From Peptoniphilus ovalis (GTDB lineage Bacteria; Bacillota; Clostridia; Tissierellales; Peptoniphilaceae): a DNA stretch of 64,000 nt. Below the pieces are notes generated by a model, which did not search any database, had not been told where the DNA came from, and was given only the letters and a program-made list of their open reading frames with translations. Shown piece after piece: positions 3,410-62,349 of the stretch (position 1 is its first letter; each line of letters begins with the position of its first letter). The translations under genes and the position numbers were made by a program. The stretch is from NCBI RefSeq assembly GCF_018919265.1, contig NZ_JAHLQO010000006.1, positions 124,001 to 188,000 on the forward strand, written 5' to 3'.

Positions 3410-3681
3410 TAACATTTTAAATCTTGAAAAAAATAATAGAAAAAAAGAGTAAGCTCATGGAGATTTTTAGAGAGTAAGTGTTTGGTGAAAGCTTATAATG
3501 GAAGTGAGGTTGAAAATCATTTTTCTTATGCAATTCTGAAATAGTAGTAAGAGTTGTCGCATTGGTAGGCGTTATTATTACCCGGCATTGATAGATGCTT
3601 GAGCGCTTATTTTTTATAAGAAAAAAGGTGGTACCGCGGTTAATTCGTCCTTTGTCATATATTGACAAGGGACTTTTTTTA
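3410..3681 (+). promoter_or_regulatory. T-box leader, probably isoleucine-specific
   Basis: Canonical T-box landmarks occur in order: the AGTA of the specifier-loop S-turn (3448-3451), AG-bulge AGAGAG, GGTGAAAG, and the T-box core GGTGGTACCGCGG (about 3627-3639). A terminator stem with a T-run ends at 3681. The best candidate specifier is ATC at 3516-3518, preceded by GAA and followed by A. A TTTTTC just downstream can pair with GAAAAA just upstream of AGTA, which closes the loop. ATC is an isoleucine codon and fits the ilv genes downstream. A second possible reading near 3541 (GAA-ATA-G) is also Ile. Uncharged tRNA-Ile would favour the antiterminator and switch the operon on. Confidence 0.85.
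3647..3681 (+). terminator. T-box attenuator terminator
   Basis: A GTCC-TTTGTCA stem pairs with TGACAA-GGGAC over a short AT loop and is followed by seven or more T. The 5' arm lies just after the T-box core, so it competes with the antiterminator. Confidence 0.85.
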
Positions 3682-46344: not shown

Positions 46345-46500
46345 CTCTTGCCCTCAGAATCTAGAGCACACAACAAAAAATTGGGCATTTTTCTGTGACA
46401 GTTATACAGATATTCTCTGCATACCCAGGTACTAAACCTTCGGCGACTCTTCCTTTCGAAACCTACTGATAAAAGTCGCAGCCTCTCTAAAAACTGAAAT
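46345..46500 (-). promoter_or_regulatory. lysine riboswitch (L-box) aptamer
   Basis: Read on the minus strand the leader contains AGAGGCTGCGACTTTTATCAG, then GTAGGTTT, GGAAGAGTCGCCGAAGG and further helices ending in TGAGGGCAAGAG. This is the conserved core order of the lysine aptamer, including the GCGAC/GTCGC helix. Bound lysine would favour the downstream terminator and shut off lysA-lysC-dapA-dapB-ddh. Confidence 0.93.
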
Positions 46501-52269: not shown

Positions 52270-52509
52270 ATGGATATTCATTTTATAAATTCTATACTAT
52301 TCATTATTTTTTATACAATTAGATTTAAAAATAATTTAAAAATTAGAATTCCAATTTTAATTCTTGGAACTTTCATATCTTATATAATATTATATAAAAT
52401 CTTTTTTTATAGAGAGATTTTTAGTGTAATTGACTTTATGAGATCTTCAATATTATTTATTGCATTTGATTTTATTTTTTCAAAAATAAAAAGAGTAGCT
52501 TGTCATTAA
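52270..52509 (+). CDS. small hydrophobic membrane protein
   Basis: This 79-residue protein has three hydrophobic segments and a basic C-terminus. I do not recognise it. It starts 14 nt after the macro-domain gene with no clear ribosome site, and its last codons form the 5' arm of the terminator. It may be a real co-transcribed gene or a chance open frame in AT-rich DNA. Confidence 0.45.
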   Translation: MDIHFINSILFIIFYTIRFKNNLKIRIPILILGTFISYIILYKIFFYREIFSVIDFMRSSILFIAFDFIFSKIKRVACH

Positions 52510-52527
52510 GACAAGCTACTTTTTTAA
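52494..52527 (+). terminator. terminator of the macro-domain unit
   Basis: An 11-bp AGTAGCTTGTC/GACAAGCTACT stem with a 5-nt loop is followed by TTTTTT. It overlaps the end of the small membrane gene. On the minus strand it also lies just after the stop of the 57-residue gene, but the T-run there is weaker. Confidence 0.88.
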
Positions 52528-52706: not shown

Positions 52707-55589
52707 CTAAGATTTTTTCTTTGTAGATTTAGTGCCTTTTGTAGTTTTAGTAGTTTTAGAACTTTTATTATCTTTATCACTATTATCCTTATTAGAATTT
52801 TCTTCTTCTTCATTTTCTTTTACCCATTCTCGAGTGTGAATATCACAATAAGATTTTGGAATAGTCATATAATCATCAGGATAAATTCCAAAGTGTTCTC
52901 TTGCATCATATACATCAGGTCTTTCAAACATTACAGTGTAGAGAACTGATTCGCTAGGACAGAACTGAGTTGCGATTTTATTTGATTCATCGCAGATTAA
53001 ATATTTTTTAAACAAGTCGTCGTATTCAGTTGGCTCAGTGCCAGATATAAATTTTTCTCTGTAACTAAAGCCAGCGTATTGACTTTCCTTTGTTGAAAGT
53101 TTACCGCTCTTTGAAGAAATGGACCTTGTTAGAATATAAGATGGATCTTCAGGAAATTCTGTAGCTAAATCAATATCTCTTGTCATTAAATTAAATAACT
53201 CAACAATGGAATTAGAATTTGAAGCAAGAGAAATCTTTGGCGAATCTGCACCAACCCACATTGAGATAGTGTATTTAGGAGAAAATCCTGAAATAAAATA
53301 GTCGCTGTTTTCTCTGTTTTGACCAATGTATGATGCAAAAGTAGAAGAATTATTAACTCCTCTTGATTTACCTCTTATGGAATTTGATTTTAAAACATCT
53401 GAAAGTAGAAATGCGTATTTTTCATCGACAATTTTTTTACTCTTCTTAGAGTTGTCAATGATTATATTTCCACTTGAATCTTCAATTCTTAAAATTGCCG
53501 TTTGCTCTTTTTTAACTCCATTATTTGCAATAGTAGAATACATTTCTGAAATTTGTGATAGAGTTAGTCCCACTTGCATATTTCCAAGGGCAAGGGCATC
53601 TAAGTTTTCATCGTGTTTTTTTGGATTTTCAGATTGTTTTATAAAAAAGTCTTTTCCTTCATTATCTTTTATAACATCAAAGGCTTTTAATATTTCCATT
53701 GACTTATGGATTCCAATTTCTTGTAAGATTTCTGCGGCAATTACATTTGAAGAATTTTCCATGGCTCTTCTAATAGTCATTAGTCCTTTAAAAGAATTGT
53801 AATAATTAGCTGGCCAGAAGTTTCCATCAACTGTAATAGGAACATCATCATAAACTGAAGACAAAGTCTTTCCATTAAGTAGTGCTGGAAGATAAACTGT
53901 AAATGGTGTGATAATACTTCCAGGTTGTCTGTAAGAATCTGTTGCTCTATTTAAAATTTTTGCGTTCTTAGAATTAACATCAAGTCCGCCAATAATTCCT
54001 TCAACAAAACCATTTTCATTATTTGCAACAATCATGGCAGATTGTGGTTGAAGCACAGGTTTGTCGTTGTAATTGTAGTATTTTTTTGAAATAATTAAAT
54101 TTTTATTGTTATCAATTGTGTAGAAATCGCCAACATTATTTAAAAATGATCCATCTATTATTAAATAATCATTTTTAAGTTCACAAGCACCATCTTCTAT
54201 TTGAAGACTTCCAATTTCAAAGGTATTTAAAATTTTATTGTCGTCAATTAAGTAGGCATCAATAATATCTATATTTTGTCCAACCTCTTTAAAGTATATG
54301 TTTTTAATTTTTAAATCTCCATGAGATGAAATATTGTAAAATTCTTTTGGAATAATAAAATTAAAATTCTCATCTAAAAGATTATTTCTGTTGATATACA
54401 AAATCTCGTCATCATAAATAATATTTTGAGATTCGTCAAAACTCAAATTTAACATTCGAGATCCACCAGTTGATGATTTATTAGAAAGGAAGTTTTCAAA
54501 TTCTTCGTACTTTGATTCCAAGTCGCCTTGAAGATTTTCATCAATTGTAGAATAAACTTTGTATCCACCAGTGAAAAGTTTGTGCTCGCCTTCCTCTAGT
54601 GATGTCTTATAAAAGGAAGCCAAGTATTTTGAAGCTTCTTTTTTTATATAATCAGTAGAATAGGAACTCATGTTGTGGTTTTTGAAATTTTTTGGATTTA
54701 GAGATGAAAGAATATCATAATTTTTTGCTCTTTCATACTCTTGTAAGTCAATATATCCAAGTTCATACATTCTTTTTAGCACAACTTTTTGTCTTTCAAA
54801 GGCATCTTTATTTAGCACAAGATAAAGCTCTTCGCCGTCGACAATTCTAGTTCCAATGATGTGAAAATCATCTTGTAAAAATTCTCCTGGCACTGATTTA
54901 AAAGGCGGATAATTTGTAGGAGATTTTGGAATACCTGCAAGCAGTGCTGCTTCAGCTGTATTTATTTCATCAACATCTTTTGAAAAATAAGTTTGGCATG
55001 CAGCTTCAATTCCGTAAGCACCTTGACCTAAATTTATTCTATTTAGATACGCTTCTAAGATTTCACTTTTAGTCATTTCATCTTCAACTCTTAGAGCAAG
55101 ATAGGCCTCTTGAATTTTTCTGCCTAGAGTCTTTTGATTTGATAGATAAACTGAACGCACAAGTTGTTGAGTAATTGTTGAACCTCCACGAACTAGAGCA
55201 CCTGATTTAATATTTGAGACAATTGAAGATGCAATACCAATTGGGTCTAGACCAGAGTGTTTGTAAAATCTGTGATCCTCAATGGCAACAAAGGCATCTT
55301 GAACATTTTTAGGAATATCTTTAATATCAATTAGCGTTCTATACTCTAAAGATTCAATTTTTTCTAGAACATTTCCCTCTTTTGAATAAATATAGGAGCT
55401 TTGATTAAAGGAATCCGTTAGACTTTCAAGGTCAGTGGATGGAGTTTTAGAAATTATTGAAACAATCATTGCCGCAAAAATAGAAAAGATTAAGACAATA
55501 ATTAAAAGTAATGTCAAAAGCAAAACTTTAATCCTTTGATTCTTATTTAAATTTTTTAAATCGCTTATAAATATTTTTAGATTTTTCAT
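52707..55589 (-). CDS. class A penicillin-binding protein with degenerate transpeptidase site
   Basis: This 960-residue bifunctional-type PBP has a TM anchor (residues ~22-46). The GT51 glycosyltransferase domain is intact (about 65-240): catalytic EDHRFYKH at 104, GGSTITQQL at 135, RKIQEAYLALRVE, and ILEAYLNRINLGQGAYGIEAA. A transpeptidase-type domain follows (~515-800). In that domain the SxxK motif reads SIIT (558-561), with lysine replaced by threonine. SSN (613-615) is kept, and the KTG slot reads YIG (about 754-756). Polymerisation should work; cross-linking probably does not. The ~270-residue insert between domains and the Lys/Ser/Thr-rich tail are unusual. Confidence 0.88.
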   Translation of the reverse strand: MKNLKIFISDLKNLNKNQRIKVLLLTLLLIIVLIFSIFAAMIVSIISKTPSTDLESLTDSFNQSSYIYSKEGNVLEKIESLEYRTLIDIKDIPKNVQDAFVAIEDHRFYKHSGLDPIGIASSIVSNIKSGALVRGGSTITQQLVRSVYLSNQKTLGRKIQEAYLALRVEDEMTKSEILEAYLNRINLGQGAYGIEAACQTYFSKDVDEINTAEAALLAGIPKSPTNYPPFKSVPGEFLQDDFHIIGTRIVDGEELYLVLNKDAFERQKVVLKRMYELGYIDLQEYERAKNYDILSSLNPKNFKNHNMSSYSTDYIKKEASKYLASFYKTSLEEGEHKLFTGGYKVYSTIDENLQGDLESKYEEFENFLSNKSSTGGSRMLNLSFDESQNIIYDDEILYINRNNLLDENFNFIIPKEFYNISSHGDLKIKNIYFKEVGQNIDIIDAYLIDDNKILNTFEIGSLQIEDGACELKNDYLIIDGSFLNNVGDFYTIDNNKNLIISKKYYNYNDKPVLQPQSAMIVANNENGFVEGIIGGLDVNSKNAKILNRATDSYRQPGSIITPFTVYLPALLNGKTLSSVYDDVPITVDGNFWPANYYNSFKGLMTIRRAMENSSNVIAAEILQEIGIHKSMEILKAFDVIKDNEGKDFFIKQSENPKKHDENLDALALGNMQVGLTLSQISEMYSTIANNGVKKEQTAILRIEDSSGNIIIDNSKKSKKIVDEKYAFLLSDVLKSNSIRGKSRGVNNSSTFASYIGQNRENSDYFISGFSPKYTISMWVGADSPKISLASNSNSIVELFNLMTRDIDLATEFPEDPSYILTRSISSKSGKLSTKESQYAGFSYREKFISGTEPTEYDDLFKKYLICDESNKIATQFCPSESVLYTVMFERPDVYDAREHFGIYPDDYMTIPKSYCDIHTREWVKENEEEENSNKDNSDKDNKSSKTTKTTKGTKSTKKKS

Positions 55590-55683: not shown

Positions 55684-56973
55684 ATGGATAAAGTTTATTT
55701 AGAAAATTTAAATTCACAAAAGAAATTAGAACGCGTTATAACAGTGGGCACAAATTTAGGAGCTCATCCTCATTCACTTGAGACTTCAATGAACGAATTA
55801 AATGAACTTGTATTTGCTGATGGAGCTGAAGTTGTAGGTGAAATCACACAAAATATTGAAAAGTTTAATCCAAAATATTTAATAGGATCAGGTAAAGTAG
55901 ATGAGATAAAAGAAATGGCAGAGCTCCTTGAAGCTGATGCCATAGTTTTTAATGATGAGCTCACTGGTATACAAGTGCGTAATCTTGAAAAGAAAATAAA
56001 AAAGAAAGTTCTAGACAGAACAAATTTAATATTAGATATATTTGCACTAAGGGCAACTACTTATGAAGCAAAACTTCAAGTTGAACTTGCAATGCTTGAG
56101 TATCAACTTCCAAGACTTTTAGGAATTGACGGATGGTCAAGAACAGGTGGGGGAATTGGTACAAGAGGACCTGGTGAGCAAATAATTGAAACAGATAGAC
56201 GTCGACTTAAAAGAGAAATCGACAAAATTAGAGATAAATTAAAAAAAGCAGAAAAAACTCGTGACATCACAAGAAGCAACAGGCTAAACAATAATATTCC
56301 AATAGTTTCACTTGTGGGTTATACAAATGCTGGAAAGTCAACGATACTAAATAGATTAAAAGATGATGAATCATCGGAAGTATCTGTTAGAAATATGCTC
56401 TTTGAAACGCTTGACCCAAGTTCAAGACATGCAAGGCTTCTTTCAGGTAGAGAGTTTATAATCTCTGATACAGTAGGATTTGTTTCAAAACTTCCAACAA
56501 AAATTGTAGAAGCTTTTAAATCCACTCTTGAAGAAATAAAGTATTCTGATTTAATTCTTCATGTGATAGATGCTTCAAGTGAAGACTTAGAAATTCAATA
56601 TAAAACTACTATGTCTATCTTAGACGAAATCAATGTACTTGATAAAAATATAATCACGGTATTTAATAAAATCGACAAGGTAAACATTGAAGATGTTCCA
56701 TTAATTTCAACAATTCCTAGAGACAAAAGAATTTATATTTCTGCAAAAAATGATGAAAACATGGATGCTCTTTTAAAAATTATTGAAGAAAATCTTGCGG
56801 ATAAATATATAGATGCAAAGCTTAAATTTCCATATGATGACACAGATTTATTATATAAACTTGTAGATAAATTTGATGCTACTCCAAGATATGAAGATGA
56901 CGGAATTTATTTGGATTTATATCTTGAAGATAGAGAATATGATTTAGTAAAGGAATATGCAAGAGATGTATAA
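55684..56973 (+). CDS. hflX: ribosome-associated GTPase HflX
   Basis: This 429-residue GTPase splits stalled ribosomes after heat or antibiotic stress. The N-terminal HflX domain (about residues 20-190) contains the LDRTNLILDIF and GIGTRGPGEQ region. A G domain follows with Walker A GYTNAGKST (about 205-213), switch II DTVGFVSKLP and NKID. The start lacks a Shine-Dalgarno sequence (see the -10 entry). It overlaps yigZ. Confidence 0.95.
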   Translation: MDKVYLENLNSQKKLERVITVGTNLGAHPHSLETSMNELNELVFADGAEVVGEITQNIEKFNPKYLIGSGKVDEIKEMAELLEADAIVFNDELTGIQVRNLEKKIKKKVLDRTNLILDIFALRATTYEAKLQVELAMLEYQLPRLLGIDGWSRTGGGIGTRGPGEQIIETDRRRLKREIDKIRDKLKKAEKTRDITRSNRLNNNIPIVSLVGYTNAGKSTILNRLKDDESSEVSVRNMLFETLDPSSRHARLLSGREFIISDTVGFVSKLPTKIVEAFKSTLEEIKYSDLILHVIDASSEDLEIQYKTTMSILDEINVLDKNIITVFNKIDKVNIEDVPLISTIPRDKRIYISAKNDENMDALLKIIEENLADKYIDAKLKFPYDDTDLLYKLVDKFDATPRYEDDGIYLDLYLEDREYDLVKEYARDV

Positions 56974-57595
56974 TTCAGTTTTAAAACATGGAATAGATGA
57001 AGTAGAAATTAAAAAGTCGACTTTTATTGGACAAGCTTTTTTTGTAAGGACTGAAGAGGAAGCTTTAAAAATAATTGAAGAGATAAAAACAGAACATAGA
57101 TCTGCAACTCACAATTGTCATGCATATATTATCGGAGAAGATGCACTGACTCAGAGGTATTCTGACGATGGAGAGCCAAGTGGCACAGCAGGTGTACCTA
57201 TGCTTGAAGTTTTAAAAAAAGAAGAGCTTAGAAATGTGCTAGTAATTGTCACAAGATACTTTGGAGGAATTAAACTTGGAGCTGGTGGACTTGTTAGAGC
57301 TTACACCAAGGGTGTTTCAATTGCACTTGATGCAGCAAAAAGAGTTGTAAGACGTGATTTTAGCAGAATGAGCATTAAATACGACTACACTTATCACGGA
57401 GCTATAATAAATCTTTTAAATAATGAAAATTTTAAAATACTAGAAGAAAATTACACTGACAAAGTTGAGGTTGTAATTGATATTTGCGAAGATGACATTA
57501 TTAAGAAATTAAATGACTTGACTAGTGCAAATATTGAAGTTGAAAAAATTAAGACAATTGAACTTCCAACTATTGATGGAGAAATTATATATTAG
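56966..57595 (+). CDS. yigZ: YigZ/IMPACT family protein
   Basis: This protein of about 209 residues has the UPF0029 domain signature DGEPSGTAGVPML and VIVTRYFGGIKLGAGGLVRAY, plus a C-terminal DUF1949-type domain. It is related to the eukaryotic Gcn2 inhibitor IMPACT, and the bacterial role is unclear. The ATG at 56966 inside the hflX end is preferred, because AAAGGA lies 11 nt upstream; an ATG at 56957 leaves only 2 nt. Overlap with hflX is 8 nt. Confidence 0.9.
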   Translation: MYNSVLKHGIDEVEIKKSTFIGQAFFVRTEEEALKIIEEIKTEHRSATHNCHAYIIGEDALTQRYSDDGEPSGTAGVPMLEVLKKEELRNVLVIVTRYFGGIKLGAGGLVRAYTKGVSIALDAAKRVVRRDFSRMSIKYDYTYHGAIINLLNNENFKILEENYTDKVEVVIDICEDDIIKKLNDLTSANIEVEKIKTIELPTIDGEIIY

Positions 57596-57603
57596 GAGAA
57601 ATT

Positions 57604-58326
57604 ATGGATTACAAAAAAGTCACAGAAGATTTAGTTAATTGGTTAAAGGAAAAAGCAAAAGAAACTGGTGCAAGGGGATTTGTCTTTGGACTTTCTGGTG
57701 GAATTGACTCTGCAGTAATTGCAGCACTTTCAAAAAAAGTATTTCCAGAAAATTCGCTAGGACTAATTATGCCCTGTGAAAGCATTGATGAAGATGCAGA
57801 ACATGCAAAGCTTGTTGCAGATAAAATCAATTTAAAAACAGAGACAATTGATTTAACAAAAACTTACAGAACTTTAATAGAAGCATCTTTTGAATCTGAA
57901 AATAAAATGGCAAAGTCAAATATTAAGCCAAGACTTAGAATGACTACACTTTATTATTATGCCCAAGACTTAGGATATTTAGTTCTTGGACCTTCTAATG
58001 CAAGCGAGTGGTATCTAGGTTATTCAACAAAATATGGAGATTCTGGTGCAGATATAATGCCTATAGTAAATATTTTAAAGACAGATGTATTTGAAATAGC
58101 AAAGGAACTTGGAGTGCCAAGAGAAATTATAGAAAAGAAACCATCAGCAGGACTTTGGAAAGGACAAACTGATGAAGATGAAATGGGCTTTACTTATGAA
58201 GTTCTTGATTCATACATCAGAGGAGAATCAACTCCTGATGAAAAGATAAAAGAGAAAATTGACAGAATGCATAAAAACTCAGCACATAAAAGAGTTATGG
58301 CACCTCATTTTGAACTTAAAAAATAA
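57604..58326 (+). CDS. nadE: ammonia-dependent NAD+ synthetase
   Basis: This 240-residue ATP-pyrophosphatase-fold enzyme amidates deamido-NAD. The SGGIDSAV P-loop, the GPSNASEWYLGYSTKYGDSGAD block and KKPSAGLWKGQTDEDEMG are diagnostic. It lacks the glutaminase domain, so it uses free ammonia. It has AGGAG upstream and follows yigZ by 8 nt. The next gene is behind its own T-box. Confidence 0.96.
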   Translation: MDYKKVTEDLVNWLKEKAKETGARGFVFGLSGGIDSAVIAALSKKVFPENSLGLIMPCESIDEDAEHAKLVADKINLKTETIDLTKTYRTLIEASFESENKMAKSNIKPRLRMTTLYYYAQDLGYLVLGPSNASEWYLGYSTKYGDSGADIMPIVNILKTDVFEIAKELGVPREIIEKKPSAGLWKGQTDEDEMGFTYEVLDSYIRGESTPDEKIKEKIDRMHKNSAHKRVMAPHFELKK

Positions 58327-58388: not shown

Positions 58389-58645
58389 TATAAAATAATA
58401 AATGCGTTGAAAGAGAAAAAGATATTTAGCAAATCTTAAAGAGAGTGGGGATGGTGAGAGCCCACAGATGAGCTTATATGTAATATTCACTCTTAAGCTT
58501 GAAGGATGAAATTTAGTAGGCCTTCACGGAAGTCACCGTTACCAGAGACTAGAGATTGTTAGATCTTTAAAGAGGAAATTATTTAATTTCGAATTTAGGT
58601 GGTACCGCGAATCCTTCGCCCTATATGGGGTGAAGGATTTTTTTA
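58389..58645 (+). promoter_or_regulatory. T-box leader of the first TrpX-like gene
   Basis: AGAGAG (AG bulge), GGTGAGAG, CACTCTTAAG, GAA-ATTT-AGTAGG (58508-58520), the T-box core GGTGGTACCGCGA (about 58598-58610) and a terminator follow in canonical order. By the usual GAA-N-NNN-A spacing the specifier would be TTT (Phe) at 58512-58514. ATT and TTA are alternatives, so specificity is not settled. The terminator stem AATCCTTCGCCC/GGGTGAAGGATT ends in a T run. Confidence 0.88.
58610..58645 (+). terminator. T-box terminator, first leader
   Basis: AATCCTTCGCCC pairs with GGGTGAAGGATT over a 5-nt loop, followed by TTTTTT. Confidence 0.88.
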
Positions 58646-58676
58646 TTATTTTAAATAATATTTTCGGAGGAAAAAG

Positions 58677-59672
58677 ATGAAAAATTTAAGAAGTTTATCA
58701 AAAGTGTTAGCGGGAGTTGTGTTATCAGGAATGTTAGTGGCATGCTCAGGAAGTGGAAGCCAAGGACAAACACAAGCAAAAGCATCAGGTGGAAGTGAGC
58801 CGATAAAGATTGGAGCTATTTCATACATTGAACATGTATCATTAGATAATTCAATCAAAGGGTTCGAAGACAGATTAAAAGAAAAAGGTATTAATGCAAT
58901 TGTAGAAGTTGAAAATTTACAAGGCGATCAAGCTCTTACAACTACAGTACCTAAAAAATTCGAAGGAGACGAATACAAACTTGTTTATGCAGTTGCGACT
59001 CCACCAGCACAAGGTGCAAAGACAGCTTTACCTAATAAAAATATAGTTTATTCAGCTGTAAGTGATCCAATAAAAGCGGGACTTATTGAGGCACCAGATA
59101 AAATCGATCATGTAACAGGTGTAAATAATAAATCAATTGCTAAAGAATACTTATCTTCATTCTTAGAATTATATCCAGATATAAAAACAATAGGAACTTT
59201 ATATTCACCATCAGAAGTTAATGCACAAGTGCAAGTTGAAGACTTGAAAAATGCCTGCAATGAACTTGGTATAAAATTAGAACTTGTTGGAATTAATAGT
59301 ATTAATGATGTGTCGCAAGGTCTATCAGGAATTGTAAATAAAATTGATGCTTATTATGCAATCACTGATAATGTTGTAGCAGCAGCAGGACCTATAGTTG
59401 CAAAAACATTATTAGAAAATAATCTTCCTTCTGTATCTGCTGAAGAAGGACAGGTAATGAAGGGACTATTAGTAAGTGATGGAGTAGATTATTATGAACA
59501 TGGTAAACAGGCAGCAGATCTTGCAATTAGAATTTTAAATGGAGAAGATATTAAAAATGTTCATGCAGAAGATAATAAGGTAAAATCCAGAAAAGTAAAC
59601 GAAAATACAGCAAAAGCATTGGGTCTTGATTTAAATTCTGATTATTTCAAGAATGCAACACTTGTAAAATAA
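58677..59672 (+). CDS. TrpX-like ABC substrate-binding lipoprotein 1
   Basis: This 331-residue receptor of the COG2984/TrpX group has a signal peptide with lipobox LVAC (Cys23), a Ser/Gly/Gln linker and a two-lobed type I periplasmic-binding fold. Motifs include KIGAISYIEHVSLDNSI, YAVATPPAQGAKTALP and PSVSAEEGQVMKGLLVSDGVDYYEHG. Members of this family with T-box control are predicted amino-acid (often aromatic) importers. Its permease and ATPase lie about 2.7 kb downstream beyond two paralogues. The ribosome site is GGAGGA. Confidence 0.88.
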   Translation: MKNLRSLSKVLAGVVLSGMLVACSGSGSQGQTQAKASGGSEPIKIGAISYIEHVSLDNSIKGFEDRLKEKGINAIVEVENLQGDQALTTTVPKKFEGDEYKLVYAVATPPAQGAKTALPNKNIVYSAVSDPIKAGLIEAPDKIDHVTGVNNKSIAKEYLSSFLELYPDIKTIGTLYSPSEVNAQVQVEDLKNACNELGIKLELVGINSINDVSQGLSGIVNKIDAYYAITDNVVAAAGPIVAKTLLENNLPSVSAEEGQVMKGLLVSDGVDYYEHGKQAADLAIRILNGEDIKNVHAEDNKVKSRKVNENTAKALGLDLNSDYFKNATLVK

Positions 59673-59697
59673 ATTTAAAATTTTTTAAAAAAAGTGT

Positions 59698-59726
59698 TGA
59701 CAAAAAAATTTTAACTAAGTATAATA
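59698..59726 (+). promoter_or_regulatory. consensus promoter of the second receptor gene
   Basis: TTGACA, 17 nt, TATAAT; an almost exact copy of the promoter at 58354. Confidence 0.88.
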
Positions 59727-59732
59727 CCATTT

Positions 59733-59988
59733 ATAAAATAATAAATGCGATGAAAGAGAGAAAGATATCAAGTAAGTCTCAAAGAGAGTGGGGATGGTGA
59801 GAGCCCATAGATAAGCTTATATGTAATATTCACTCTAAAGCATGGAGGATGAATTAAGTAGGCCTTCACGGAAGTCACCGTTATCAGAGACTAGAGATTG
59901 TTAGATCTTTAATAGAGGAAATTTTTTGAATTTCGAATTTAGGTGGTACCGCGAATCCTTCGCCCTATATGGGGTGAAGGATTTTTTT
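59733..59988 (+). promoter_or_regulatory. T-box leader of the second TrpX-like gene
   Basis: This leader closely follows the first one: AGAGAG, GGTGAGAG, CACTCTAAAG, then GAA-TTA-AGTAGG (59851-59862), T-box core (59941-59953) and terminator. It contains a clear AGTA in the 5' specifier-loop strand, where the first leader has AGCA. Between GAA and AGTAGG there is one base fewer than in the first leader, leaving TTA or ATT as candidate specifiers. A TCTT/AAGG helix in leader 1 is TCTC/GAGG here, a compensatory change that supports the stem. Confidence 0.88.
59954..59988 (+). terminator. T-box terminator, second leader
   Basis: Its stem is identical to that of the first leader terminator, and it is followed by TTTTTTT. 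Confidence 0.88.
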
Positions 59989-60019
59989 ATTATTTTAAAA
60001 ATAATTTTTGGAGGAAGAA

Positions 60020-61009
60020 ATGAAATATTTAAAGAAAGTATCAAAGTTAGCAGTAATTGGTTTAATGGCAGCATCACTTGTTGCATGTGGAGGAAATAAA
60101 AAAGCAGAAACAGCAGATGCAGCAGCTGGAGATGAACAAGTAAAAATTGGCGTTATATCTTATATTGAGCAAGTTTCACTAGACAATGCAATTAAAGGTT
60201 TTGAAGATAGACTTAAAGAAGAAGGAATAAATGCTCAGTTAGAAGTTGAAAATCTTCAAGGAGACAATGCTCTTACAACAACAGCTCCTAAAAAGTTTGA
60301 AGGAGACGAATACAAACTTGTTTATGCAGTAGCAACACCATCAGCACAAGGAGCAAAGACAGCTCTACCAAATAAAAACATTATTTATGCTGCAGTAACT
60401 GATCCAGTTGAAGCAGGACTAATTGAAGCACCAGATAAAATTGACCATGTAACAGGAGTTAATGATGCAGTATCTGCTAAGACACAACTTGAATCTTTCT
60501 TAAAGATTTATCCTGATGTAAAAACTATTGGAACTCTTTATTCAACATCAGAAGCTAACTCATTAGTTCAAATAGAAGATTTAAAAAAAGCTTGTGATGA
60601 ACTTGGACTTAAAGTTGAAATCGTAGGAATTAATAACATCAATGATGTTTCGCAAGCACTTCAAACTATTACAAATAAAATCGATGCTTACTATGCACTA
60701 ACTGATAATACAGTTGCATCAGCAGGACCAATAGTTGCAGAAATTTTACTAAACAATAATCTTCCATCAGTTTCAGCTGAAGAAGGACAAATGTCAAAGG
60801 GACTACTTATGAGTGAAGGTGTAGATTATTACGAACATGGAAAACAAGCAGCAGATTTAGCAATTAGAATTTTAAATGGGGAAGACATTAAAAATGTTCA
60901 CGCAGAAGATAATAAAAAAGCTGCTAAAAAAATAAATGAAAAAACTGCTAAAGCACTTGGACTTGATTTAAATAGTGAAAATCTAAAGGATGCAGAACTT
61001 GTAAAATAA
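60020..61009 (+). CDS. TrpX-like ABC substrate-binding lipoprotein 2
   Basis: This 329-residue paralogue of the preceding receptor has lipobox LVAC (Cys23). It has the same core with KIGVISYIEQVSLDNAI, YAVATPSAQGAKTALP and PSVSAEEGQMSKGLLMSEG. Most differences lie in the linker and in scattered surface positions; ligand-loop motifs are almost unchanged, so the two probably bind similar ligands. The ATG at 60020 follows GGAGGA; an in-frame upstream ATG at 60008 overlaps that site. Confidence 0.9.
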   Translation: MKYLKKVSKLAVIGLMAASLVACGGNKKAETADAAAGDEQVKIGVISYIEQVSLDNAIKGFEDRLKEEGINAQLEVENLQGDNALTTTAPKKFEGDEYKLVYAVATPSAQGAKTALPNKNIIYAAVTDPVEAGLIEAPDKIDHVTGVNDAVSAKTQLESFLKIYPDVKTIGTLYSTSEANSLVQIEDLKKACDELGLKVEIVGINNINDVSQALQTITNKIDAYYALTDNTVASAGPIVAEILLNNNLPSVSAEEGQMSKGLLMSEGVDYYEHGKQAADLAIRILNGEDIKNVHAEDNKKAAKKINEKTAKALGLDLNSENLKDAELVK

Positions 61010-61042
61010 AATAAAAACTTAAAATATTTTTGGATAAAAGAC

Positions 61043-61071
61043 TTGACTTTAACTTGCTACTAGCTTATAAT
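61043..61071 (+). promoter_or_regulatory. promoter of the third receptor-transporter unit
   Basis: TTGACT, 17 nt, TATAAT. It resembles the other two promoters but differs in the spacer. Confidence 0.85.
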
Positions 61072-61077
61072 ACATTT

Positions 61078-61338
61078 AAATTTTAATAAAAGCTGTGCAA
61101 GAGAAAAAAGAATTTTAGATGATTTAAGAGAGTTGTCGTTTGGTGAGAGACAATACATCGGAATTTAACATACACTCTTAAGCTTATTTGTTGAAGGTAG
61201 TAGGCAAGTACGGAAGCCCCCGTTAACGCAGGCTAGAGGTTGTTAGACCTTAAAATGAGGTAATCTTTTTGATTATAAAATCGGGTGGTACCGCGAAGTC
61301 AGTCTTTCGTCCCAATGTGGATGAAAGACTTTTTTTAT
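61078..61338 (+). promoter_or_regulatory. T-box leader of the third receptor-permease-ATPase unit
   Basis: The order of AGAGAG, GGTGAGAG, ACACTCTTAAG, GAA-GGT-AGTAGG (61193-61204), T-box core (61283-61295) and terminator is canonical. The specifier region clearly differs from the two upstream leaders. GGT or GTA are the candidate codons, depending on register, and I cannot choose. The different codon implies a different sensed tRNA. Confidence 0.88.
61301..61338 (+). terminator. T-box terminator, third leader
   Basis: AGTCTTTCGTCC pairs with GGATGAAAGACT over a short loop, followed by TTTTTTT. The stem sequence is unlike that of the other two leaders. Confidence 0.88.
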
Positions 61339-61353
61339 TTTGGAGGTATTTTA

Positions 61354-62349
61354 ATGAAATTTAGAAAGTTAGTAGTTTTAGTGATGATGTCAATGCTTCT
61401 TGTAGCATGTGGCACTAAAAAAGAAGATGGAGCTTCAACAGAAAAGACAAATGCAAATGAAGTTTCCACAGAAAGCTCAAATAAAAAAGTCGGAGTAATA
61501 CAACTTGCAGATCACATTGCACTTGAAAGAGCGAGACTTGGATTTGAAGAAGAACTTAAAAAGACAAATCCAGATGTAGAAATTATTACAAAAAATGCAA
61601 ATGGAGATTTAACAGTTGTTCCACAAATTATAAAATCCTTTAGTGATCAAAATGTAGATTTAATTTACGCAATAGCAACACCTGCAGCCCAGGGAGCTAA
61701 AAATGCAGAAAAAGATATTCCAATAATATTTAATGCAGTAACAGATCCTGTAACATCAGACTTAGTTGAAAATATTGAAAGCCCAGAAGCAAATGTAACT
61801 GGAGTAAGTGATTACTTCTCAATGGCTGCTCAATTAGAAGAGATGATAGACATCTTCCCAGATGTAAAAAATATTGGAGTAATGTTTTCAACAAATGAAT
61901 CAAATTCAAAATTCCAAATTGAAGAACTTAAAAAAGCAGCAAGTGATTTTGGATTAGAAGTTGTAGAAGTTGGAGTTAACAACATAAACGACGTATCAAC
62001 AGCAATAAAAACACTTGAGCCAAAGATGGACATCTTTATGGCGATTACAGATAACACAATCTCATCTGCATCATCAATAATTGCAGAAAGTTTAAAACAG
62101 GCAAATATTCCATCCTTTGCATCAGAAGAAGGACCTGTTGAAAATGGAATACTTCTAAGTTTAGGTGTAGACTACACAAAACTTGGTGAGGAAGCAGCTA
62201 CTATAGCTGATGAAATTTTAAAGGGAAAGAAAGTTAATGAAATTCCAGTACTGTTTCCAACAGAAGCTAGAAAAGTAGTTAATAAAGATACAGCTGAAGC
62301 ATTAAAGATTGAAAATGAAAAATTATTTGAAAATGCTGAAGTGAAATAA
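61354..62349 (+). CDS. TrpX-like ABC substrate-binding lipoprotein 3
   Basis: This 331-residue COG2984 receptor has lipobox LVAC (Cys19) and the family core, but is clearly diverged from the two upstream copies: GVIQLADHIALERARLGFEEEL replaces the SYIE segment, with PSFASEEGPVENGILLSLGVDY later. The IEHVS/IEQVS to LADHIA change lies in the ligand-binding loop and suggests another ligand. It is directly followed by the permease and ATPase genes, so it is the receptor of the complete unit. The ATG at 61354 follows GGAGG. Confidence 0.9.
   Translation: MKFRKLVVLVMMSMLLVACGTKKEDGASTEKTNANEVSTESSNKKVGVIQLADHIALERARLGFEEELKKTNPDVEIITKNANGDLTVVPQIIKSFSDQNVDLIYAIATPAAQGAKNAEKDIPIIFNAVTDPVTSDLVENIESPEANVTGVSDYFSMAAQLEEMIDIFPDVKNIGVMFSTNESNSKFQIEELKKAASDFGLEVVEVGVNNINDVSTAIKTLEPKMDIFMAITDNTISSASSIIAESLKQANIPSFASEEGPVENGILLSLGVDYTKLGEEAATIADEILKGKKVNEIPVLFPTEARKVVNKDTAEALKIENEKLFENAEVK

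Follow-up and report, generated by a model that had tools for sequence, protein, structure and literature searches.

A class A penicillin-binding protein of Peptoniphilus ovalis with an intact glycosyltransferase and a degenerate, predictedly inactive transpeptidase domain

Class A penicillin-binding proteins (PBPs) are defined by the presence of both glycosyltransferase (GT) and transpeptidase activities in one chain. The class A PBP considered here is encoded in a stretch of 64,000 nucleotides from Peptoniphilus ovalis (assembly GCF_018919265.1, contig NZ_JAHLQO010000006.1, positions 124,001 to 188,000; hereafter the window), whose genus is placed by NCBI in the Peptoniphilaceae, and it belongs, by full-length similarity and by its locus beside what we take to be hflX-yigZ, to the PBP1 orthologue group of that family. 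The need for coupling the two activities in cis is usually probed with engineered mutants, for example in C. difficile, for which PMC12539705 describes a PBP1 whose GTase-associated insertion is required for function and whose transpeptidase activity is essential to growth yet dispensable for building the septum. The nucleophile mutant of that PBP1 still divides, its septa depending on a non-catalytic role of PBP3, and the other transpeptidases named there are two class B PBPs and five L,D-transpeptidases; this mutant is a precedent for a PBP1-type enzyme whose GT works without its own transpeptidase.

Comparison of sequences leads us to consider it highly probable that the window PBP is a glycan polymerase bearing a pseudo-transpeptidase domain, crosslinking being supplied in trans. 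What can be read directly is that both catalytic lysines are gone from the window protein, that degenerate transpeptidase centres are common to ten genera and that the GT residues are kept. A previous sequence-only reading of this gene, which gave no strand (the reading frame is on the minus strand), had described altered motifs, SIIT at the SxxK position and YIG at the KTG position, with SSN retained, and this description holds in register against solved class A PBPs. Among the 22 structure matches of the window protein five alignments were inspected (7u4h, 3zg7, 3udf, 4oon and 5u2g): SIIT is aligned on SxxK in all five and YIG on KTG in three (7u4h, 3udf and 4oon), the KTG region being not cleanly aligned in 3zg7 and lying outside the main match in 5u2g. 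The Pfam transpeptidase model gives a weak and incomplete match to residues 520-744 (73.9 bits, cut-off 22.1; model positions 4-226 of 299) and, since it ends at position 226, stops short of the KTG region. The GT51 domain is intact, as had also been claimed, with all seven scored residues in place (E104, D105, Q142, R157, K158, E161 and N183) and a strong Pfam score (Table 1). Of the features by which a class A PBP is recognized, GT51 and SxN are thus found in the window protein, while SxxK and an active-site K[ST]G are absent. An alternative SxxK in the domain can be rejected, none starting between residues 326 and 954, but one other K[ST]G does exist, a KSG at residues 827-829, which is the only such motif downstream of the GT domain.

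Table 1. Features of the PBP gene and of its neighbourhood in the window (names of the neighbouring genes are assigned from sequence)
Feature	Position	Strand	Basis or remark
Class A PBP (PBP1-type), intact GT51 and degenerate transpeptidase domain	52707..55589	-	960 amino acids + stop
GT51 glycosyltransferase domain, residues 72-232	54894..55376	-	Pfam, 206.5 bits
Post-GT segment, residues 233-370	54480..54893	-	first ~70 residues matched in four GT-only relatives
Pseudo-transpeptidase domain, residues 520-800	53190..54032	-	Pfam match and alignments to solved class A PBPs
SxxK position, S558-I-I-T561 (Lys to Thr)	53907..53918	-	alignment
SxN motif kept, S613-S-N615	53745..53753	-	sequence
KTGT position, Y754-I-G-Q757	53319..53330	-	alignment
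C-terminal low-complexity tail, residues 926-960	52710..52814	-	sequence
Intrinsic-terminator-like hairpin 3' of the PBP gene	52494..52520	-	consensus match only
Divergent neighbour, locus marker: HflX-like GTPase	55684..56973	+	name from sequence
Second locus marker: YigZ/IMPACT-like protein	56957..57595	+	name from sequence
Third locus marker: NAD synthetase-like protein	57604..58326	+	name from sequence

These changes are not peculiar to one strain. A match was found in all 14 searched genomes of the genus; Thr561 is present in 12 of them and KTG is lost in every one, while the remaining two genomes keep the lysine of SxxK and have exchanged its serine (TLIK, Ser558 to Thr, in G006; NLLK, Ser558 to Asn, in G008). 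A search of 130 genomes of the family, with the orthologues of 123 tabulated, separated 81 rows with SxxK, SxN and KTG, two with SxxK and SxN in which KTG is not covered, 36 with a degenerate transpeptidase centre, distributed over ten genera, and four in which the transpeptidase part is absent altogether. The Lys and Thr of KTG are lost from all 36 degenerate orthologues, although its Gly is kept in all of them, and Arg536, invariant in the intact rows, is likewise lost in 36/36. SxxK is broken in 28 of the 36; Ser558 is kept in 21 (replaced by Thr in 13 and by Asn in 2), Lys561 in 10 and both in 8, and Ser613 and Asn615 are both kept in 14. The GT residues, conversely, are kept in the 36 degenerate and the four GT-only orthologues wherever covered: the set of seven is complete in 119 of 123 rows, the exceptions being two degenerate rows lacking coverage and two intact rows with R157W. 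The earlier prediction of glycan polymerization without crosslinking is therefore well supported by the orthologue comparison, and the predicted loss of beta-lactam binding by the window protein is a sound inference.

The four GT-only reading frames (265-274 amino acids) come from the four genomes of a single genus (g38) and consist of an N-terminal hydrophobic stretch, the GT and ~70 residues beyond it; their alignment with the window protein extends to about residue 302 and has a gap around residues 60-85. The ~70 residues may represent the GI accessory domain, and residues 233-370 of the window protein probably contain a GI-type domain as in C. difficile PBP1, with limits that we have only estimated; PMC12539705 places such a domain in class A PBPs of the Peptoniphilaceae. 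Two features that the sequence-only reading had singled out as unusual proved to be less so. The ~270-residue insertion between the domains is a family trait, the stretch equivalent to residues 232-520 spanning 281-292 residues in 33 degenerate rows versus 287-298 in 80 intact rows. C. difficile PBP1 is likewise reported to have a disordered tail at its C terminus (PMC12539705).

A further observation is that the degenerate orthologues are accompanied by a second class A PBP. The source genome holds two GT51 genes, the window gene and a compact class A PBP of 815 amino acids with SAIK and KTG. At least two GT51 matches occur in 40 of the 130 family genomes, which are exactly the 36 degenerate and the four GT-only ones, and never in the 83 intact ones; a single match occurs in 86 (the 83 intact genomes and three that have only the compact gene). 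No GT51 match was found in the remaining four of the 130 genomes (G038, G089, G090 and G097). Contig ends cut the orthologue of G001, which for this reason counts three matches; additional partial matches exist in G087 (a frame of 256 amino acids) and G011 (314 amino acids). The second enzyme, scored for SxxK and KTG, has both motifs in all 30 copies that were read out of 40 (13 within the genus and 17 elsewhere). Among the matches listed from 150 genomes of the order, the compact paralogue is covered in one piece only inside the family; those listed outside it are in pieces, at 38-50% identity and in open reading frames of mostly 870-1160 amino acids, a pattern that leaves both duplication and transfer as possible origins, and SxxK, SxN and KTG are present in all 14 outside-family loci that were read.

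The locus of the paralogue in the source genome (L250:3883-12451) presumably runs S1-domain protein, TilS, HPRT, FtsH, auxin efflux carrier and compact class A PBP. Matching genes are listed, in Table 2 of PMC4082486, for a Peptoniphilus harei-like fragment in Trichomonas vaginalis. We had considered that the T. vaginalis PBP, derived from a relative of P. harei, might be the counterpart of the window gene, a candidate that was rejected on finding that its neighbours match the paralogue locus; given this gene order, the intact paralogue is the probable counterpart of TVAG_243790 (PMC4082486).

The source genome also encodes two further transpeptidase-domain proteins (open frames of 800 and 494 amino acids) and two SEDS genes, one of which adjoins the 494-amino-acid protein. 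We take the first SEDS gene to lie between murD and murG and the second beside a class B PBP. With two SEDS genes and two further transpeptidase-domain proteins in the same genome, it is unlikely that the window PBP1 makes up for the absence of FtsW/FtsI in the way that C. difficile PBP1 does.

The degenerate group likely had a single origin. In a tree of the GT-domain columns alone (142 rows; G001 and G010, whose GT part is too short, split genes and a 257-amino-acid outlier were left out), 33 degenerate rows fall on one side of a branch with support 98, and 24 paralogues are likewise set apart by a branch with support 100. The locus, too, is shared: PBP1 is divergent from hflX-yigZ in seven of the eight orthologue regions outside the window (g5 is the exception), including regions from intact (g3, g34), degenerate (g2, g4, g39) and GT-only genera (g38, twice). 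HflX, YigZ/IMPACT and NAD synthetase are the names that we presume, from their sequences, for the three markers of this locus. In genus g36, no PBP1 was found within 1.5-kb flanks of hflX, yigZ and nadE in any of its three genomes, in which those three genes are present; each has a single GT51 match, which lies in a compact-type gene (812-820 amino acids, read in two of the three). In one of them, G119, an open reading frame that by eye looks like a transposase gene (L260:76-1065) stands next to hflX, in the expected place of PBP1, and the hflX gene is in turn split.

Loss of catalytic residues has not been accompanied by a general collapse of the domain. Among the 41 transpeptidase positions that are invariant in the sense of being shared by at least 97% of intact rows, 21 persist in 90% or more of the degenerate rows and eight in fewer than half. 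The losses are centred on the active site: six of seven motif positions versus five of 34 others are kept by fewer than 60% of degenerate rows (Fisher p 0.0006), and four of seven versus four of 34 by fewer than 50% (p 0.018), with the proviso that both lines were chosen post hoc and that the rows are not independent. The domain has nevertheless diverged faster than its intact counterparts. At matched GT identity (~0.52, between-genus pairs), 152 degenerate pairs have a transpeptidase identity of 0.332, versus 0.461 for 1335 intact pairs, and the transpeptidase/GT ratio of nonsynonymous rates (dN) is 2.57 in 22 degenerate pairs versus 1.77 in 18 intact pairs. The ratio of nonsynonymous to synonymous rates (dN/dS, Nei-Gojobori) for the transpeptidase part has a median of 0.10 (0.039-0.232) in 31 degenerate pairs versus 0.064 (0.023-0.094) in 16 intact pairs, figures that come from related species at more than 80% identity, with many dS values above 1 and two saturated intact pairs dropped (degenerate genera g1 and g2; intact, 12 genomes of g3 plus g35 and g32). 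Ratios this low point to purifying selection, and the pattern fits a pseudoenzyme domain under constraint that would be weaker but real.

These observations may be accounted for by assuming that the PBP1-type enzyme now works only as a membrane-anchored GT51 polymerase of lipid II, with no crosslinking of its own. An ancestor of the group would have gained the second, compact class A PBP with its intact transpeptidase; this enzyme, together with class B PBPs, would then have taken over crosslinking in trans, thereby freeing the transpeptidase centre of the older enzyme. KTG would have been lost early, SxxK and SxN diverging afterwards in a different manner in each lineage, with possible end states in one genus that has a free-standing GT plus adjacent segment and another that lacks the gene. 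The dead domain, where retained, is probably a folded unit that remains under selection; it would most likely serve the GT as a scaffold or by binding a partner or glycan. What is lacking in C. difficile could here be provided by the additional class A enzyme.

An error of sequencing or assembly, or a substitution confined by chance to a single strain, is rejected as practically negligible, the same changes recurring across the genomes of the genus. It is also very improbable that the transpeptidase remains active with altered residues, for instance through Ser558 and another base, SSN and perhaps the K[ST]G at 827-829, even though the window protein has both Ser558 and SSN and more than half of the degenerate genomes have Ser558: the KTG Lys and Thr and Arg536 are gone from all 36, Ser558 has become Thr or Asn in 15, including two genomes of the window genus, and one genus has dispensed with the domain entirely. 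The KSG itself (window 53103-53111, minus strand) lies after the transpeptidase domain; residue 827 is 73 residues past the KTG position and beyond the Pfam-matched domain, so that a relocated KTG is unlikely. More standing, although we still hold it to be rather unlikely, has plain decay, whereby a dead domain with no role would be on its way out, carried by a selected GT domain. The faster divergence of the domain, its absence from one genus, the absence of the gene from another and the interruption in G011 all speak for decay; however, rows of at least 880 residues persist in 33 of the 36 degenerate genomes (contig ends truncate two of the remaining rows, and the third is interrupted), dN/dS stays near 0.1 and half of the invariant positions are still kept by nearly all degenerate rows.

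Several points weigh against a glycan polymerase with a dead but retained domain. Ser and Lys of SxxK are both kept in eight of the 36 degenerate genomes (g4, g26 and g37), in which acylation is possible, and K[ST]G at 827-829 is present in 31/36 degenerate rows with residues at that place versus 9/80 intact rows, a difference that is unexplained. The orthologue of G011 is interrupted inside the transpeptidase part (pieces of 643 and 299 amino acids), for which an assembly cause is possible in a genome 87% complete and 5% contaminated. The dN/dS pairs, requiring more than 80% identity, do not include the window protein itself. The association with a second GT51 copy looks like one origin, so that its count does not amount to many independent events. 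The placement of the GT-only genus differs between trees: with the paralogues it stands outside the degenerate rows, on a long branch near the paralogues, and in a second tree, from which the paralogues were left out and in which only 8 rows of g3 were retained, it groups with the degenerate rows at low support (48), the degenerate rows alone having 60. Finally, growth of C. difficile is not sustained by a PBP1 devoid of transpeptidase activity (PMC12539705).

Beyond a catalytically dead domain, it is conceivable, though we advance it as a tentative proposal short of being probable, that the domain has become a new, selected regulatory or docking module, which by binding a stem peptide, glycan or partner (for instance the second, intact class A enzyme or a class B PBP) would switch or steer the GT, the two class A PBPs forming a divided synthase in which one polymerizes and the other crosslinks. 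If true, such an arrangement would be the natural counterpart of the septa that C. difficile builds with transpeptidase-dead PBP1, aided by non-catalytic PBP3 (PMC12539705).

Some other features of the window deserve mention. Terminator-like sites of the kind found 3' of the PBP gene number two in the region, versus 1.1 expected from shuffles. Three consecutive units of a T-box leader and an ABC-type substrate-binding protein occupy positions 58398-62349, and a fourth T-box lies at 3428-3655. A lysine riboswitch (46356-46495, minus strand) stands upstream of a minus-strand gene run, which we take from the sequence to be lysA, aspartokinase, dapA, dapB and ddh.

These findings bear on the coupling of polymerization and crosslinking, for nature seems to have separated the two activities in 11 genera, ten degenerate and one with a bare GT. 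The family would offer a natural experiment, in which intact relatives can serve as the reference and the cell has a second enzyme that is itself intact, and a graded series from intact through dead and deleted to gene lost. They also suggest that one Peptoniphilus class A PBP would not be a beta-lactam target, its GT domain being the working part. In the open-licence PMC literature, mostly judged from listings, we found no description of a class A PBP lineage that is naturally dead as a transpeptidase. The individual elements are known, whereas their combination and its spread look new.

Set against known systems, the nearest structure is PBP1A in 7u4h, which matches window residues 53-951 (E 1.2e-168), inter-domain stretch included, and whose motif segments resemble g35 rows, its source thus probably being a family member; SxxK and KTG are intact in 7u4h and both missing in the window protein. 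The architecture, and the best NCBIfam model, are those of the PBP_1a_fam (TIGR02074), but unlike bifunctional class A PBPs the window protein stays below the cut-off of that model (446.3 versus 508.75 bits) and lacks the catalytic SxxK and KTG. Polymerization only, as expected for the window protein, is what characterizes the monofunctional GT51 enzymes (MGT, TIGR02070; S. aureus-type 3hzs and 3vmq), whose build is shared by the g38 relatives; unlike these, the window protein scores below the MGT cut-off (128.5 versus 182.65 bits) and retains a full-length transpeptidase-like domain after its GT. Compared with C. difficile PBP1, lastly, the motifs of the window protein are missing naturally, and a second class A PBP is encoded in the same genome.
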